A stretch of DNA of 36,604 bases from contig JANYFM010000076.1 in the NCBI GenBank assembly GCA_025362655.1, positions 1 through 36,604 of the forward strand, given 5' to 3'. Every line of letters begins with the position of its first letter. The stretch's first letter is position 1. The notes beneath the pieces were generated by a model. It did no database searches and was not told the DNA's origin. It saw only the letters and a list, made by a program, of their open reading frames with translations. The translations under genes were made by a program, and so were the position numbers. The stretch is from Hyphomicrobiales bacterium. GTDB lineage: Bacteria; Pseudomonadota; Alphaproteobacteria; Rhizobiales; Beijerinckiaceae. Of this stretch, positions 3,708 to 26,570 are shown in pieces.

Positions 3708-6544
3708 TGCCCCAGCCTCTCCAGGAGATCGCGCACATGCACCTGATCGGCTTTATAATTGCCGGTCAGCGTGTACATGACGAGATTGACGCCGCCGCGC
3801 AGCGCCATCTCGCGCTGGCGCGGCGTGCCGGGCACCAGCGGAAACAGCGGTTCTCCGTTGCGCGAGACCGCCCAGGCCGCCGCCAAATCGTTGGACGTGA
3901 TGATCAGCGGCGAGACGCTGTCGCCGGCCCGCGCCGGCCGGTTGGCGCCATCGCCGGCGTCGGGCGGCAGCGCCTCGATCCACGTCTGGCCGATGGAGGT
4001 GCGGCCGATAAAACCATCGAGCAGATAGAAGGTTTTGGTGACCACGTGATCGCGCGGCACGACTTCAAGCTCGGGCACATCGACGTTATCCAGCACCTTG
4101 CGCAGCCATAACTGCTCGGGCGTCGGAGGTCCGCCGGCGCGCGCGGTCAGCGCGTCCCGCGTGTCAAAAACAATCATGCCGCCGTTTTTCATGTAGGCCG
4201 AAATCTGCGTCACCGCGACAGCCGTCGGCAGCGGACGGTCGGGGACGACAGGCCAGTAAATGAACGGATAGAAAGCCAATTCATCGCGGGCGGGATCCAG
4301 CCCGATGGGCTCGCCCGGGCTAAGCGAGGTGCGCGCCGCCAGCGCCAGCGACAGGGCGGCAAGGCCAAGCTGGCTGGCCTCATCGACCCGCGCATTGCCG
4401 GTGACGATATAAGCGAGCCGCGTCTTCAGCACGGACTCAAGCTCCTTCGGGCTCGGCGGCAGCGGCGCGGCGATTCCCGGGCGCGGCTGGAAAGGCCGGT
4501 CTGTTTGCGCAACAGCGGGCGGCGCATGGGCGATCATGGCAAAGGCAACCGCCACAGCCAGCGCGGCCGCGGCGGGACGACGGCGCAACCCGGCAAGCCC
4601 GCCCGCCAGCCAGATCGACACAATCGCGTCCAGCGTCAGCAGCAGGAAGGCGATCGATACGATGGATGGACGCAGATCGACGGGTTCGGCGTTGCGCAGG
4701 GGTTCCATCACGAGCGTCAGTCCCTCAAGGTTGGCGGGCTCCAGCCTATCACCGGGCGCCAGCGCATTGACAGCGGTCAAAGCGTCGCCTGGGCCATAAA
4801 ATCCGGGCGGATGCTCCGCCGTTGCCAAGCCCTGATAGTTCTGCGGAATGGGCTTGGCGCTTAGCGGCGGCGGGCCCAGCGCGCCAAATCCATCGAGAGT
4901 GCGGGATGGAGCGATGGTCTCGGCCGACAGCGGCGGCGGGCTCGCGGGGTCCGTCGCGGCGGCGGCGCCGGGGTCGGCGGCCATCGATAGAACCCGCCGG
5001 AGAATATCGACGAACAAGCCCGACAAAGGCAGGTTCGACCAGGTGGTGTCCGCCGTCACATGCACCAGCACGATCAGCCCTTTGCCGCGGCGCGCGGCTG
5101 TTATCAGCGGCGTGCCATCCGCCAGCGCCGCCCAGGTTTTGCCGGGCAGGCCGGCTTCAGGCTCCGCCAGCACTTGCCTTGTGACGGTGACTTCCCCGAC
5201 GGCGTTGAGGCCGAACAGCGGGCTTTCGCGCTCGAAGGGCGCGAGTTTCTTCGGCGTGTCCCAGGACAGGGAGCCGCCAAGCACACGCCCGCCCCGGCGC
5301 AGCCGCACGGGCGCCAGATCATCCGTTGAGCCGGCGAGCCGCGTGCCGGCGAAACGCAGCAGCAGGCCGCCGTCGTCAACAAAACGCGCGAGCTGGTCAT
5401 GGGCGGGGCCGGCGACAACGCCGACATCCGCCAGCACCATCACGGAAACGCGGTCCTCCAGCAGGCTGCTGACGGGATCGCCGCGCCCGGCGCGCGGCTC
5501 GCGAACGTCGGCGAAAGGCGTCAGCGCTTTGACGAGATAATAGGAGGGCGAAAGCAGCGGCTGCGCGGTGTCCGCGCTGGCGCCCGAGACGACGCCGACG
5601 CGGCGGCGTTTCCAGCGCTCGTCGAGCAGGGTCACCGCGCCGGCGGAGCGCTCGCCGGCGATTTCGATGCGGGCAATCTCATTGCGCAGCTCAATCGGCA
5701 GTTCGAACCGGGCTTTCGTCTCCAGCGCGGAGCCGAAATCAAACGGCGCCTCGCCGATTGTCAGTCCGCGCATATCGAGGGCGCGCAGGGTTCCGCTGGA
5801 GCGGCCTGTCGCAGCGGCGCGCACAGTTTTCACGTCAAGCGCGCCCGCGCCGTTCTCGGCGCCGGCAATGGCGAGCGCCGGGCGGCCTTCTGTGAGAACC
5901 CGCAAGCCGGCGCGGCCTTCCAGCGCGGCGGCCATGCCCTGCGCGAATGCGCGCGAATTGCCGGAGGCGAGACCATCGAAAATCCAGACAGCGTCAGCGT
6001 TTTTGTTGGCGGCGAGGAAACGCTGCGCGGCGGGCAGCGCCGCCATCCGGTCGGGCACGTGGGGCTGGGGCTTCAGCGCCCGCAGGCGCTCAAGGGTTTT
6101 CGCGGCATCGGAGACCGCCACATCGCGGCCGCCTTCGGAGACCGCCAGCAGCGCGGTGGCGCGGCCATCGCGCGCCGCGCTGTTGAGGCGCTCGCCGGCG
6201 GCCAGCACGCGCCGCTCCCAGGCGGGCGCCGCCGGCCAGCCGTCGTCGAGCACAACCAGCAGCGGTCCTTTGCCGGACTCCCCCGGCGGCAGCGGGTTCC
6301 AAACGGGTCCCGCCATCGCCAGAATGATCAGCGCGGCGAGACCGAGGCGCAACGCCAGCAGCCACCACGGCGTTCGCGCCGGCGTCTCCTCCTTCGGCTT
6401 GAGGTCGAGGATGAGTTTCAGCGGCGGAAAGGCGATTCGGCGAGGGCGCGGCGGCGTGATGCGCATCAGATACCAGAGCAGCGGCAGAGCCGCCAAAACG
6501 GTCAATACGAGAGGCGCCGCGAAAGCGAGGGGCAGGCCCAGCAT
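3704..6544 (-). CDS. BatA N-terminal / DUF4159 domain protein
   Basis: 946 aa; N-terminal double TM LPLLWYLMRITPPRPRRIAFPPL typical of BatA-like proteins; C-terminal DUF4159-like region (FYPFIYWPVVPDRPLP...MIVFDTRDA). Confidence 0.85.
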   Translation of the reverse strand: MLGLPLAFAAPLVLTVLAALPLLWYLMRITPPRPRRIAFPPLKLILDLKPKEETPARTPWWLLALRLGLAALIILAMAGPVWNPLPPGESGKGPLLVVLDDGWPAAPAWERRVLAAGERLNSAARDGRATALLAVSEGGRDVAVSDAAKTLERLRALKPQPHVPDRMAALPAAQRFLAANKNADAVWIFDGLASGNSRAFAQGMAAALEGRAGLRVLTEGRPALAIAGAENGAGALDVKTVRAAATGRSSGTLRALDMRGLTIGEAPFDFGSALETKARFELPIELRNEIARIEIAGERSAGAVTLLDERWKRRRVGVVSGASADTAQPLLSPSYYLVKALTPFADVREPRAGRGDPVSSLLEDRVSVMVLADVGVVAGPAHDQLARFVDDGGLLLRFAGTRLAGSTDDLAPVRLRRGGRVLGGSLSWDTPKKLAPFERESPLFGLNAVGEVTVTRQVLAEPEAGLPGKTWAALADGTPLITAARRGKGLIVLVHVTADTTWSNLPLSGLFVDILRRVLSMAADPGAAAATDPASPPPLSAETIAPSRTLDGFGALGPPPLSAKPIPQNYQGLATAEHPPGFYGPGDALTAVNALAPGDRLEPANLEGLTLVMEPLRNAEPVDLRPSIVSIAFLLLTLDAIVSIWLAGGLAGLRRRPAAAALAVAVAFAMIAHAPPAVAQTDRPFQPRPGIAAPLPPSPKELESVLKTRLAYIVTGNARVDEASQLGLAALSLALAARTSLSPGEPIGLDPARDELAFYPFIYWPVVPDRPLPTAVAVTQISAYMKNGGMIVFDTRDALTARAGGPPTPEQLWLRKVLDNVDVPELEVVPRDHVVTKTFYLLDGFIGRTSIGQTWIEALPPDAGDGANRPARAGDSVSPLIITSNDLAAAWAVSRNGEPLFPLVPGTPRQREMALRGGVNLVMYTLTGNYKADQVHVRDLLERLGH

Positions 6545-13582: not shown

Positions 13583-14548
13583 TTATTGTTTAACCCAGCC
13601 CGAAGCGGAGACGAGCGGCCCCCAATAGGCCGCGTCAGCGCGGATTTCATCCGCCATCACCTCTGGCGATGAGGGCCTGGGATCGAAGGCCAGCACGTTC
13701 ATGCGTTCGATCACAACCGGCGCGGCAAGGGCTTTGGCCATTGAGGCGGTCAGCGCCGCGACAACCGCGTCGGGCGCGCGGGCGGGGGCGAACATGCCGA
13801 TCCATGCGTTGGTTTTCATCGGATAGCCCTGCTCGGCGGCGGTGCGCACATCCGGCAATTGGGGCGCGCGCGCCGCGCTGGTGATGGCGATGACGCGAAG
13901 CTGCGTGCCGTTCAGCGGCAGGAAATCGCCGAGCGCGGTGATGCCCGCCGGCAATTGCGCGCCGGCGAGATCCTGCACCAGCGGCGCCGAGCCGCGGTAG
14001 GGCACAGCGGTCAGCGTCACGTTTTTTTCTTTTGCGGATGCGATCAGCGCGAATTCGGGTTTGCTGCCGGGCGAGGGAATGCCGACGCTGCCGGATTTCG
14101 CGTCGGCGCGGGCTTGGCGGAAAAAACCGTCGAGATCGCGCGCCCCGCTGGACGCGGGAACCGCCATGGCGCTGGCGTATTCAGCGATGCGCCCGATGGC
14201 GGCGAAGTCGGTCAGCGGATCGAAACCCGGCTGCGCCATCGTGAGAGGGATGATCGTCATGGTGTGATCGGGCGCGACCATCAGCGTGCGCCCGTCCGGC
14301 GCGGCGCGTTTCAGCGCCTGGGCGGCGATCTGGCCGCCGGCGCCGGTAAGGTTCTCGACAATGAAACTGGCGCCGAGGTCCTGCCCCATTTGCTGGGCCA
14401 CAAGGCGCGCCACAACATCAATCGTGCCGCCGGCGGGAAAGCCGACGAGCACGCGCACCGTGCCGCCGGACAGGGCAGGTGTTTGCGCGGATGCGGGCGC
14501 GCCCGGCAGCAGCGAGACCGCAATCAGCGCGGCTTTGAGAAGTTTCAT
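13583..14548 (-). CDS. tripartite tricarboxylate transporter substrate-binding protein (Bug/TctC family)
   Basis: Signal peptide then VRVLVGFPAGGTIDVVARLVAQQMGQDLGASFIVENLTGAGGQIAAQ. Confidence 0.93.
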   Translation of the reverse strand: MKLLKAALIAVSLLPGAPASAQTPALSGGTVRVLVGFPAGGTIDVVARLVAQQMGQDLGASFIVENLTGAGGQIAAQALKRAAPDGRTLMVAPDHTMTIIPLTMAQPGFDPLTDFAAIGRIAEYASAMAVPASSGARDLDGFFRQARADAKSGSVGIPSPGSKPEFALIASAKEKNVTLTAVPYRGSAPLVQDLAGAQLPAGITALGDFLPLNGTQLRVIAITSAARAPQLPDVRTAAEQGYPMKTNAWIGMFAPARAPDAVVAALTASMAKALAAPVVIERMNVLAFDPRPSSPEVMADEIRADAAYWGPLVSASGWVKQ

Positions 14549-21756: not shown

Positions 21757-23022
21757 TCAGCCTCCCATCGCGGGCTCGCCCGCGCGCGCGGCGGCGCGGC
21801 TGTCTCCGGGTTTGGCGTCCTGAAGCGCGCGGTGGTGCGCGAAGAGGCGCGCCATCTGATTTTGGATCGAATAGGGCTCGACAAGCGCATGGACGCGCCC
21901 GGGGTCGACGCGCCCGGCGCTGATGTCCTCCCAGAGCGCCGCGAAAGCGTCTGTCATTTGCGCGATGCAGGCGTCAGCGGGCTCGCTGCGCTCCACCATG
22001 GCTCCGCTCACGCCGCTGACAATCAGCGGATCATATTGCGGCAAACGGATTGCGCCGAAGGGGCGGCCAGCCGAAAGCGTCTCCAGGAGATAGCAGGGCA
22101 TGCCCTCGAAGTACGAGGTGAGGATGCCGGCATGGCAGGAGGCGACGATTTCTGCGACCTCCTCCGCCGGCTGGAATCCGTAACGGACAGTGAAACCGCG
22201 GATGGCTTCGAACTCCGGGTAGCGGGCGGGATCGGTGGTTCCGATATAGTGAAACTCAAGCCTGCCATGAAGGCGCTTATGCAGCGCCGCCAGAATTGTG
22301 AACATCAGCGGCGGGTCTTTGAAGGCGTCGAGCCGGCCCGCGAAAACGATGCGGAAAATTCCATCGGCGCAGTTGAAGGGCTTGGGGGCGAAGCGCTTGG
22401 TATCGACGGAGACGGTCATCACCTCGGCCTTGCGCGCCGCGCTTGGCAGGATGCGCTTCAACCGCTCGATGATATTGGGATTGACGCAGAGAACGCGGTC
22501 CGCGAGGCGCAGCGCGATGCTCTCGTTGGCGCGGTGCAGGAACCACAGCTTCTTGATCAGACTGTCCATCTTCTGCTCTTTCGAGCCCTCGCCGTGAACC
22601 ATCTGAACGCTCTTCAGCCCCAGCAGTTTGGGCAGAAGGGCGAATTCGAAGCGCTGGAGGTCCGCCGACACCGGCGAACCCTTCACCGCCGAGCGGATTT
22701 TGAAAATGTGGCGCAGCGCGCCGAAGGCGAAACGGAAGGTCGTCGATTCCAGCAGGCTGCGGCCCGGCGAATTGATGGCGGCGGCGCCGATATGGGCCAC
22801 GGGAAGAAAATCGATGCCGCGCCCGCCGACGAAAACGCGGGTGATTTTGCCCTGCGGCAGGTCGCCGAACTCATCGACGCCGACGAACAGAATTGAGAAA
22901 TCCTGAGGGTGGCTGGTCTGGATCATGCGGACATGGGTCTCGATGCCGCCGAGCTTGGCGCCGCGCGGGTCCATCGGATGCATGAGAAGAATCCGGTATT
23001 GCGCCATGGTCTCAGGCTCCAT
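21757..23022 (-). CDS. glycosyltransferase (GT4-like)
   Basis: KLGGIETHVRMI; RIVFAGRLDAFKDPPLMFTILAALHKR; TSYFEGMPCYLLETLSAGRP; start 23022 or 23007. Confidence 0.9.
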   Translation of the reverse strand: MEPETMAQYRILLMHPMDPRGAKLGGIETHVRMIQTSHPQDFSILFVGVDEFGDLPQGKITRVFVGGRGIDFLPVAHIGAAAINSPGRSLLESTTFRFAFGALRHIFKIRSAVKGSPVSADLQRFEFALLPKLLGLKSVQMVHGEGSKEQKMDSLIKKLWFLHRANESIALRLADRVLCVNPNIIERLKRILPSAARKAEVMTVSVDTKRFAPKPFNCADGIFRIVFAGRLDAFKDPPLMFTILAALHKRLHGRLEFHYIGTTDPARYPEFEAIRGFTVRYGFQPAEEVAEIVASCHAGILTSYFEGMPCYLLETLSAGRPFGAIRLPQYDPLIVSGVSGAMVERSEPADACIAQMTDAFAALWEDISAGRVDPGRVHALVEPYSIQNQMARLFAHHRALQDAKPGDSRAAARAGEPAMGG

Positions 23023-23815
23023 TCGATTTGGCGGCCCCCGCCAGCATGCGGCGCGCCGGCGCCAGCAGGGCGAGATCGGCCAGCACCGCCGCGCAGCGGG
23101 CGTACCGCGCGGCGAGGCGCCCCGGGTCCTTGGCAAGGCGCCAAGCCCATTCGAGGCCGTTGTTTTGAAAAAACCGCGGCGCGCGGGACTGGTCGCCGGA
23201 AACAAAATCCAGCGCCGCGCCGATGCCCATGAAGCCGATGCCGGGATGCAGCCGCGCCATGCGGTCGCTGAAGAACTCCTGCTTGGGCGCGCCGAGCGCC
23301 ACGAAACACAGGCGCGCGCCGGATGCCGCGATGCGGGCGGCGGCGGCGAGCGCTTCGTCGGAGCGCGGATCAAAACCGTAAAGCGGCGCCTCGATATGGC
23401 TGACCTGAAGGGCGGGATGCCGGCTTTTCAACCGGCGCGCGGCGCGCTGCAAGGAGTCCTGGCTGGAGCCGAAGAACGCGATCTTAAGCCCGGCTTCGGC
23501 GGCGGCTTTGCACATGGGCTCCAGCAGATCGGCGCCGGTGGTGCGCTCAAGGCGGACGCCCTGACGGCGGGCCATCCAGACGAGGGGCGCTCCGTCCGCG
23601 GTGACGAAAGTGGCGCGCGAATAGGCCTCGCGGAACGCCGGATCGGTGCGGCGCTTGACGAGATGATCCATGTTGAGCGTGAAGAGGGTGAAGCCAAGGC
23701 CCCGCCGGCTGCGCTCGATGGTCTTTTCAAGGAGCTCGCCCATGCCGGCGATATGGATGGTCTGCCCGTCAATGGTCGCGAGAGCTTTAACTTGGGATGC
23801 AGCGGCGCTGGTCAT
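23012..23815 (-). CDS. wecG: WecG/TagA/CpsF family glycosyltransferase
   Basis: TLNMDHLVKRRTDPAFREAYSRATFVTADGAPLVW; FFGSSQDSLQ; GARLCFVALGAPKQEFF. Confidence 0.94.
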   Translation of the reverse strand: MTSAAASQVKALATIDGQTIHIAGMGELLEKTIERSRRGLGFTLFTLNMDHLVKRRTDPAFREAYSRATFVTADGAPLVWMARRQGVRLERTTGADLLEPMCKAAAEAGLKIAFFGSSQDSLQRAARRLKSRHPALQVSHIEAPLYGFDPRSDEALAAAARIAASGARLCFVALGAPKQEFFSDRMARLHPGIGFMGIGAALDFVSGDQSRAPRFFQNNGLEWAWRLAKDPGRLAARYARCAAVLADLALLAPARRMLAGAAKSNGA

Positions 23816-23891: not shown

Positions 23892-23914
23892 AATGAAACA
23901 GGGGGTGTTGATTA

Positions 23915-24042
23915 ATACCAAAGGGCATGAGCTTCGGCTCATGACCTTTGGCAAGCGCGAAAGCGCGGGCTTTGAACAAGTATTGGCTGACGCGCGGAAC
24001 TCTATGGATTGACCAGAGGTCAATTCATAGAGCCCTTGGTAT
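23915..24042. repeat. multi-hairpin palindromic element with terminal inverted repeats (MITE/REP-like candidate)
   Basis: Terminal ATACCAAAGGG (23915-23925) vs CCCTTGGTAT (24033-24042); hairpin CCAAAGGGCATGAGC-TTCG-GCTCATGACCTTTGG (14/15 pairs); GCGC-GAAA-GCGC; CTCTATGGATTGACC-AGA-GGTCAATTCATAGAG (15 pairs incl. one G-T). Confidence 0.65.
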
Positions 24043-24054
24043 AAAGCGATGGTT

Positions 24055-25509
24055 TCAGGAAACCGCGGAGCGCATCGCGCTTAGCTTGGCGGCGCCGGCG
24101 CGAACCAGCTCCGGAAACAGCGCCGCCAGCGTCAGCAGATAGACCAAACCGCCGGCGGCGACTTCCAACGCGATGCGCAGCGGCAACGGTCCGGCGGCCC
24201 GCTCGAAGGGGATCAGCGCCAGCGCGGCCGCCATCCACATTGTCGCCAGCGTGATACGCGCCAGCATCGCCCAGGGCAGCGGCAGGCCAAAGCCGCGCGC
24301 CGCAACGACGCAGCCGAAAACGAGCCCCGCGACAGTGCCGGCCAGACAGCCCGCCGCCGCGCCCGGCAGGCCGCCGTAAATCAGCCCGAGGATGCAGCAG
24401 GCGACGGTCGCGATCACCTCGACAACATTGATCACGACATTCATGCGCGTGCGCTCAAACAGGATGATCACCTGGTCGACTGTGTGAACCCGCAGATTGC
24501 GCAGCGCGCCGGCGACGACAGCCAGCGGCAGCACCGCAAAGGTCACCGCCTGAAACGGCTGCGCTATCATCAATTCCACCAGGGGCCGCGAAATCATAAC
24601 AATGCCGGTGCTGGCGGGGGCCAGCAGCGCGAACAGAACGGCGCCGCTCATTGACACTTGTTTCAGCGCTTCCCCGCGGTTGCCGGCCTGGAGATATTTC
24701 ACCGCCAGCGGAAACGCCGCCGCCGTGACCAGCATGGCGATCACCGCCGCGAGGCGCTGTCCAAGCCCCCAGCCCACGGAAATCAAGCCGACAGCGGCGG
24801 GGCCGTCGTGCTGTTCGACGATGACGCGGATGCCGTTAAAGCTGATCCAGCCGATCACGCCGGCGAGCACCAGCGGCGCGCCAAAGCCCGCCGCGCGCCG
24901 GATGATATCGCGGTCCGGCCAGGCCATGCCCCGGCCAAGACGCAATTCCCGCCACAGCCACAGGAGGCCGGCAGCCTGGGCGATGGCAAAGCCGGCAAGA
25001 GCCGATCCGGCGTCGGCGGAGAACCGATTGACGGCGATCAGCGCCAGCGCAAAGCCCGCGACGGGACCGATCAACTGCGCGAGCGTATAAGTGAGAATGG
25101 CTCCCGCCGAGCGCGCCCGCTCGGTGAGATGCGCGGTGAGCGAGCGAGAAACGCAATACACAATGGCCGATACGATCATGACGGGTGTCGGCGCGGCGTG
25201 AAGAGTGAGCAGCGTTGCAACGCCCACACAGGCTTGGATGACCGCGCTGAGCGCGAGAATGGCGTTTTCCGCTTTTTGAAAGCGCATGCGCTCCGCCGGC
25301 CCGTCGAAGCCTCCGATATAGCGCAGCATGTATTGCGACCACCATGCGAGGCCGAGGAGATAAGCAAGCTCCTGCGCCGCCATGATGTAAGCGAGCACGC
25401 CGTATTCCCCAGGGGTCAGCCAGTGCGTCCACGCCACAGCGGCGATGAATTGCGCCAGCGGCCCGACGAGCTGGGCGGGAAGATAGAGAATCGTCTGCCG
25501 CATCAGCAT
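24055..25509 (-). CDS. oligosaccharide flippase / polysaccharide biosynthesis protein (Wzx-like)
   Basis: Multi-TM protein starting MLMRQTILYLPAQLVGPLAQFIAAVAWTHWLTPGEYGVLAYIMAAQELAYLLGLAWWSQYMLR. Confidence 0.87.
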   Translation of the reverse strand: MLMRQTILYLPAQLVGPLAQFIAAVAWTHWLTPGEYGVLAYIMAAQELAYLLGLAWWSQYMLRYIGGFDGPAERMRFQKAENAILALSAVIQACVGVATLLTLHAAPTPVMIVSAIVYCVSRSLTAHLTERARSAGAILTYTLAQLIGPVAGFALALIAVNRFSADAGSALAGFAIAQAAGLLWLWRELRLGRGMAWPDRDIIRRAAGFGAPLVLAGVIGWISFNGIRVIVEQHDGPAAVGLISVGWGLGQRLAAVIAMLVTAAAFPLAVKYLQAGNRGEALKQVSMSGAVLFALLAPASTGIVMISRPLVELMIAQPFQAVTFAVLPLAVVAGALRNLRVHTVDQVIILFERTRMNVVINVVEVIATVACCILGLIYGGLPGAAAGCLAGTVAGLVFGCVVAARGFGLPLPWAMLARITLATMWMAAALALIPFERAAGPLPLRIALEVAAGGLVYLLTLAALFPELVRAGAAKLSAMRSAVS

Positions 25510-26570
25510 AAGCGTGGGTCTCCGCCCGACTTTTGCGCCAGCCATTGCGCGAGCGCGGCGTGATCGCCCGCCGCCAGCCCCAGCCAGCGCTCAATATTGG
25601 CGGCGCCGAGCGCGGCATATTGCGCCCGCCAATCCGGCTGTTGAACCAGCGCGGCGATTTTCCGCGCGCTTGCGCCCGCGTCGGCGGGATCGAGGAACAC
25701 GCCTGACGATCCCAGCACCTCGCGAAACACCGGCTTCTCCGGCGCGATGACCGCCAGGCCCGCGTATTGAGCCTCCAGCAGCGGCAGTCCGAGGCCCTCG
25801 TCGTGGGAAGTGGAAATCAGCATATCCGCGCTTTCAGCGATTTCGCGCACGCGTTCGACGCTTTGATAGCCATGCATCACAACGCCCGGCGCGAGCGCCA
25901 GTTGTTCGGCATCCGCGCCCCAGCCGGTGCGCCCGACAATATCGAGCGTCGCATCGGGATAGCCCTCAGCGCGCAGGGCCGCGAGGATGGCGGCGGCCGC
26001 CATCAGGTTCTTGCGCGGCTCGATTGTGCCCAGCGCGACAAGCCGCAAAGCCCCCGGCGCGCCGGCCCGCTCCGCGCGCCCGGCAGCGCTCAGTCCAAAC
26101 ACATTGCGCACGCCCGGCCGGTAAAGCTCGATCCGCGCGTCGGCGCGGCAAAACCGCCGCATATCGTCACGGGTGGTCTGCGAATTGGCGAGAAAATTCG
26201 GCAGCCGTTTCAGCGCGAGACGGAACGCCGGCGCCATATAGAGTTTGGCGCGCGGGTTGAGGTCCCCGCGCCTGGTGATGAGGAAAGTGTCGTGGATATA
26301 GGGCAGCACGCGGGCGCCGAAAAGTGTGGCCAGCGGCGAGGGCGGAAAGCCCGGGCACAGAAGAATGGCGCGTTTATCGAGGGCGAGGCGCGCCGGCAGG
26401 ACGAGGCACTGGCGGTAAATCATGTCCGCGACGCCGGAGGAGCCGACCGGGGTCACGTCGAGCGGCGCCAGAGCCTCGCGCGAAAACAATTCGAGCGTGA
26501 TGCGCTCCAGCCCCGTCACATGGCGTCCGCAATGGGTGTGATCGATGTAAATGGGCGCCTGTCCGCTCAT
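25503..26570 (-). CDS. glycosyltransferase (GT4-like)
   Basis: IYIDHTHCGRHVTGLERITLEL; LVALGTIEPRKNLMAAAAILAAL; STSHDEGLGLPLLEAQYAGLAVIAPEKPVFREVLG. Confidence 0.93.
   Translation of the reverse strand: MSGQAPIYIDHTHCGRHVTGLERITLELFSREALAPLDVTPVGSSGVADMIYRQCLVLPARLALDKRAILLCPGFPPSPLATLFGARVLPYIHDTFLITRRGDLNPRAKLYMAPAFRLALKRLPNFLANSQTTRDDMRRFCRADARIELYRPGVRNVFGLSAAGRAERAGAPGALRLVALGTIEPRKNLMAAAAILAALRAEGYPDATLDIVGRTGWGADAEQLALAPGVVMHGYQSVERVREIAESADMLISTSHDEGLGLPLLEAQYAGLAVIAPEKPVFREVLGSSGVFLDPADAGASARKIAALVQQPDWRAQYAALGAANIERWLGLAAGDHAALAQWLAQKSGGDPRLC

Follow-up and report, generated by a model that had tools for sequence, protein, structure and literature searches.

A palindromic element between wzx-like and wecG-like genes is very probably a MITE of an IS630 group that duplicates 3-bp TNA sites

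In a draft genome of a Hyphomicrobiales bacterium (Beijerinckiaceae; GCA_025362655.1), a palindromic stretch of DNA lies between a wzx-like and a wecG-like gene, both on the minus strand, after the stop of the former and before the start of the latter. The window analyzed here is the 36,604-nucleotide stretch at positions 1 to 36,604 of contig JANYFM010000076.1. What kind of element is this? A sequence-only reading had listed a MITE, a REP/BIME repeat, and a structured RNA as candidates. The scatter of its copies, their 3-bp TNA duplications, an empty site, and an insertion sequence (IS) with the same ends identify it as the first of these and speak against the other two. With a probability of roughly 0.92, we regard it as a MITE, that is, a non-autonomous transposon of about 97 to 128 bp that keeps both ends recognized by an IS630-family transposase.

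The three hairpins and the terminal inverted repeats described in the sequence-only reading are present as it gave them. Hairpin 1 reads CCAAAGGGCATGAGC-TTCG-GCTCATGACCTTTGG with one G/A mismatch, its inner arm mirroring the terminal repeat, and hairpin 3 reads CTCTATGGATTGACC-AGA-GGTCAATTCATAGAG with one G-T wobble; the terminal repeats, TACCAAAGGG and CCCTTGGTA, pair near-perfectly, with a one-base bulge. The extent first proposed, 23915 to 24042, captured a real element whose exact limits lie one base further in at each side (Table 1). On the minus strand, the element folds at -60.2 kcal/mol, compared with -31.8 +/- 3.5 kcal/mol for 200 dinucleotide shuffles (z = -8.1), none of which reached its energy.

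Table 1. Features of the element and its neighbors in the window
Feature	Coordinates	Strand	Basis
Very probable MITE, 126 bp, TACCAAAGGG...CCCTTGGTA	23916..24041	+	Boundaries set by aligning ~30 genomic copies
Target-site duplication, left TAA, 3 bp	23913..23915	.	Sequence and family-wide TNA duplication test
Target-site duplication, right TAA	24042..24044	.	Sequence and family-wide TNA test
Left terminal inverted repeat, TACCAAAGGG, common to IS630-group ends	23916..23925	+	End comparison
Right terminal inverted repeat, TACCAAGGG on the minus strand	24033..24041	-	Sequence and copy alignment
Hairpin 1, 15-bp stem, TTCG loop	23918..23951	+	Sequence
Hairpin 2, GCGC-GAAA-GCGC, within the linker starting GGCAAGCGCGA	23955..23966	+	Sequence and copies
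Hairpin 3, 15-bp stem, AGA loop	24000..24032	+	Sequence and folding
Positions +21 to +25 of the left end, GGCTC in the window copy	23936..23940	+	GANTC (CcrM site) lost here
GACC at +21 of the right end, offset as in 26/27 genomic copies and several IS630 right ends	24018..24021	-	Motif comparison
WecG/TagA/CpsF-family glycosyltransferase gene	23012..23815	-	PF03808 E=5e-50; TIGR00696; start ~100 bp from the element
Wzx/HfsF-like polysaccharide flippase gene	24055..25545	-	PF01943/PF13440; weak NCBIfam HfsF match, sub-cut-off

A 146-bp query gave 50 matches in the 3.78-Mb draft genome. Among these, 27 are copies with both ends, and the rest include fragments; some are solo hairpins, solo hairpin 1 among them. 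Copies range from 97 to 128 bp, the long ones measuring 126 to 128 bp and the shorter ones, of about 113 and 97 bp, lacking parts of the middle. Even the largest, at 128 bp, is too short for a transposase, and the family is thus short, non-coding, and multi-copy, as a MITE should be. A deletion derivative of about 60 bp (L056, G000:C35:3212-3278) retains both tips, with TAA on each side, and is perhaps the smallest mobile form.

Beyond this genome, matches occurred in 2 of the 18 same-genus genomes first searched (three in all), and many copies are present in G020, a genome from a different family of the order. The left-end pattern was found in 7 of 241 sampled alphaproteobacterial genomes, the reversed pattern in none; with its offset shifted by one base as a negative control, the pattern matched once in 386 genomes. 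It also occurs in 11 of 89 genomes of the Asticcacaulis family, with more than 100 occurrences in Asticcacaulis AC402. Plasmids of Asticcacaulis and Agrobacterium vitis carry related repeats; the plasmid search with the window element itself gave no match. A different MITE subfamily, of 123 bp and with TNA duplications, is present in the Asticcacaulis family (L288, L299, and L306 in G490; L287 in G536), and it has relatives on the A. vitis and Asticcacaulis plasmids.

That these copies arrived by transposition is indicated by their flanks. Among own-genome copies with TNA on both sides, 20 of 24 have identical flanks (9.8 expected by shuffling; p<1e-5), as do 32 of 36 such copies in other genomes (15.8 expected; p<1e-5). 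The N takes all four bases, and reverse-complement matches between flanks number only 2 in this genome and 1 elsewhere; the TNA is therefore a direct repeat and not an extended palindrome. The short target-site duplication proposed from the sequence thus exists, as a 3-bp TNA, here TAA, rather than as TA. One copy (L006) interrupts a decayed porin gene, for which an empty site is available: orthologues (in G005 and others) and an intact tandem paralogue of the Porin_2 family lack the element and have the three bases once, the paralogue reading CCCAATAATG.

Several arrangements of copies were seen besides. Four tandem MITE units spaced 133 to 134 bp apart occupy 372 to 895 of L038 (G020:C272), and in other genomes two MITEs share one TNA, as at 4159 and 4322 of L116; such arrays suggest insertion into the duplication of an earlier copy. 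The copy at L025 (G000:C275, about 13790-13965) has near-identical flanks of 23 to 25 bp on both sides (AAGCGCGCGCCGCCGTTACCGCG), extending beyond the 3-bp duplication. L021 and L029 share their left flank but not their right one, which would fit breakage of a duplicated region at the element.

Which enzyme could move such copies? The MITE and a group of IS630-family elements have the tip TACCAA in common, and a search of relatives with the tip pattern revealed two inverted ends, separated by 1.16 kb, that enclose a gene with HTH and DDE_3 domains. We read both ends of 12 IS630-family copies from this genome, its genus, Caulobacteraceae, and named plasmids of Shinella, Rhizobium, Mesorhizobium, Aureimonas, Acetobacter, Komagataeibacter, and Novacetimonas. 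The copies sharing the MITE ends are 1.12 to 1.19 kb long. All 12 begin with TACCA and carry GACTC at +21 of the left end, 10 of them having been found without use of that motif. In the MITE, GACTC stands at +21 of the left end in 19 of the 27 own-genome copies and GACC at +21 of the right end in 26; in other genomes, the left end has GACTC in 29 of 32 and the right end GAC[C/G] in 30 of 32, the sample having been partly selected by the left motif. Identical TNA (TAA, TTA, TGA, or TCA) flanks 8 of the 12 IS copies, in the same genus, Caulobacteraceae, Shinella, Rhizobium, Aureimonas, Novacetimonas, and Komagataeibacter; three others have unequal flanks (those of this genome, Acetobacter aceti, and Mesorhizobium), and one runs off its contig. 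These insertion sequences (NF033545, PF13358) therefore resemble the MITE in their ends, +21 motifs, and TNA duplications and differ from it in carrying a transposase (orfA/orfB, with a frameshift) and in having no left-end hairpin. The full IS with ATACCAA ends whose existence had been suggested is found both in this genome and in relatives, and with it terminal inverted repeats, target-site duplications, and ends common to an autonomous element are all in evidence.

The IS630 copy of this genome is apparently intact, judging from a 352-aa transposase frame without stops across an A7C frameshift site (NF033545, E=1.9e-72), and 17 bases of its right end recur as the Asticcacaulis MITE end TACCAACCCGCGAAAAT. 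It lies end to end with a MITE copy (L188, G000:C321, 114-1411) with a shared TTA; its own flanks being unequal (TGA/TTA), recombination or nested insertion may have produced the pair. Since its ends are TACCAATCC/TACCAACCC and not TACCAAAGG, the exact partner of the window's MITE subfamily may be an IS that has been lost or is missing from the assembly; the closest to that subfamily's ends among those seen is L192 in G010. Mobilization of the MITE by IS630 is strongly supported by the compared sequences.

IS630-family members are usually said to duplicate the dinucleotide TA, and the group described here departs from this textbook rule, MITEs and eight complete IS630 copies alike having a 3-bp TNA duplication. 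This is unusual for the family, though seen directly here. TNA duplications are typical of the IS1031 group. One could therefore propose that another TNA-preferring IS, for example of the IS5-family IS1031 type, moved the MITE and that its likeness to IS630 is convergent. We consider this very unlikely, since the IS630 copies themselves display identical tips, +21 motifs, and 3-bp TNA duplications. Among the elements met in these comparisons, none was an IS5-type element with such ends.

A strong secondary structure might also mark a non-mobile regulatory RNA or terminator under selection at this locus, and besides the very stable fold, the compensatory changes in hairpin 1 favor this reading. 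Among 20 distinct sequences, in which 20 two-sided changes occur, 98.6% of cells preserve the seven outermost pairs of the left hairpin, and the covariation score is 0.417, compared with 0.106 when shuffled and at most 0.165 when slid. However, copies adjoin unrelated genes, no copy was found in 16 of the 18 same-genus genomes first searched, and one copy sits in a gene with an empty site in relatives; nothing in the window matched an Rfam family above its gathering score, and an Rfam structured RNA was rejected accordingly. An RNA fixed at this locus is hence very improbable, and RNA effects could instead be a secondary consequence of the MITE.

The left hairpin is present in nearly every MITE copy. 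Its stem is missing from IS left ends, which form no more than 5 pairs; in MITEs, the median is 7 and the maximum 16. The hairpin thus belongs to the MITE and is being kept there, candidate reasons being an effect on RNA, protection of DNA, and an added binding site. Independent birth of the hairpin in each lineage was also considered; the shared linker GGCAAGCGCGA speaks for common descent with compensatory change, but many of these lineages had been selected by GGCAAGCGCGA itself. The sequence-only reading had held that a single copy, no conservation in relatives, and no compensatory change in the stems would count against it, and copies, relatives, and covariation contradict all three.

Least likely of all is a REP/BIME-type palindrome that a Y1 (RAYT-like) transposase would spread by way of its single-stranded hairpins: REP/BIME repeats are likewise multi-hairpin and intergenic, solo copies of hairpin 1 exist, and the genome has one full Y1 transposase gene, but no element copy adjoins that gene or the one Y1 fragment, the ends, inner motifs, and duplications are those of DDE-type IS630 copies, and the 3-bp duplications and the empty site contradict it, as Y1 enzymes are not known to make 3-bp duplications.

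For the MITE, we propose the following mechanism. Each end begins with TACCA and has a further motif at precisely +21: on the left GACTC, on the right GAC[C/G]. IS630 copies would supply the transposase in trans, by way of a -1 frameshift at the A7C tract; both the mobilization in trans and the frameshift are predicted from sequence. The transposase would then excise the element and insert it at a TNA, of which 3 bp are duplicated. Copies would survive mainly where they are harmless, stop codons included, because a stop is re-created when its TAA or TGA is duplicated.

In 15 of the 27 own-genome copies, the duplicated TNA doubles as the in-frame stop of an ORF with 80 or more codons, compared with 16% of TNA sites; the window copy's own entry in this count, an ORF antisense to wecG, is probably spurious. 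For ORFs with 150 or more codons, the same holds in 9 of 27 copies elsewhere, compared with 3.3% of sites. Against TNA sites outside ORFs only, the excess becomes weak or varies with the ORF threshold chosen. Purifying selection therefore suffices to explain it, and preferential insertion at stop codons, though possible, is not required. Among other-genome copies with matched pairs, TAA and TGA duplications outnumber TTA and TCA by 25 to 7, and the left end therefore tends to face the upstream stop codon.

At the locus itself, the TGA stop of the flippase gene (24055-24057) is 10 bp from the right duplication. A search across the joined flanks of the window copy gave no match to an empty site within the genus. 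Because its GANTC is lost, this copy is probably a neutral passenger between the wzx-like and wecG-like genes, possibly one that alters read-through; if transcribed, its hairpins may affect RNA stability or read-through between the two genes.

Several known repeats resemble this family. GACTC, a GANTC sequence, is the site of CcrM, the cell-cycle DNA methyltransferase. The genome has a gene for a CcrM-like methyltransferase (RAMA domain, E=4.6e-19; N-terminal DNA methylase sequence judged by eye), of which GACTC is the expected target. CIR repeats, reportedly described by Chen and Shapiro in 2003, are the closest parallel. In PMC2229807, these CcrM-associated intergenic repeats are placed in Caulobacter, Brucella, and other alphaproteobacteria, their origin and mobility are left open, and it is asked whether the methyltransferase site was captured or evolved. 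As described there, CIRs are about 110 bp long and numerous, with two hairpin arms and a linker, an architecture that the window element shares, and they have TA termini and, in one arm, a GANTC within or close to the loop, to be set beside the GACTC at +21 in 19 of 27 copies here, lost in the window copy (PMC2229807). Reviews give them no terminal inverted repeat, a duplication that is unknown, a strictly intergenic location, and an unexplained mobility (PMC2229807). The MITE, by contrast, has terminal inverted repeats, a 3-bp TNA duplication, and an IS630 partner, and it is not strictly intergenic, one copy lying in the decayed porin gene. The GANTC of CIRs, which we compared by description only, would be the IS630 end motif.

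The RUP repeat of Streptococcus pneumoniae is similar in its length of about 107 bp, IS630-like terminal inverted repeats, many copies, and absence of an ORF, and it has been proposed to be mobilized by IS630-Spn1; it differs in inserting at TA, in belonging to another phylum, and in having no reported GANTC site (PMC2229807). The MITE differs from REP/BIME repeats with RAYT in having a target-site duplication and no association with Y1 genes.

In the IS630 left end, the GANTC precedes the transposase start by about 60 bp. Control by methylation has a precedent in the Dam sites of IS10 and IS50, described as Tn10 and Tn5 (PMC5390034). By analogy, the left-end GANTC at +21 might act as a CcrM switch in which hemimethylation behind the replication fork, in the IS630 end and in its MITEs, licenses transposase binding or expression, and CIRs might be IS630 MITEs with a methylation site in the transposon end; we hold this to be doubtful though possible, and methylation control of transposition is only a hypothesis.

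Our data point to a group of IS630 elements whose target-site duplication is a 3-bp TNA. They offer a testable answer on GANTC-bearing repeats, namely, that these may be MITEs of the IS630 group with a left-end GANTC at +21, and they raise the question of whether CcrM methylation gates transposition. Insertion at stop codons would be a simple route to a harmless transposon, the duplicated TAA or TGA restoring the stop.
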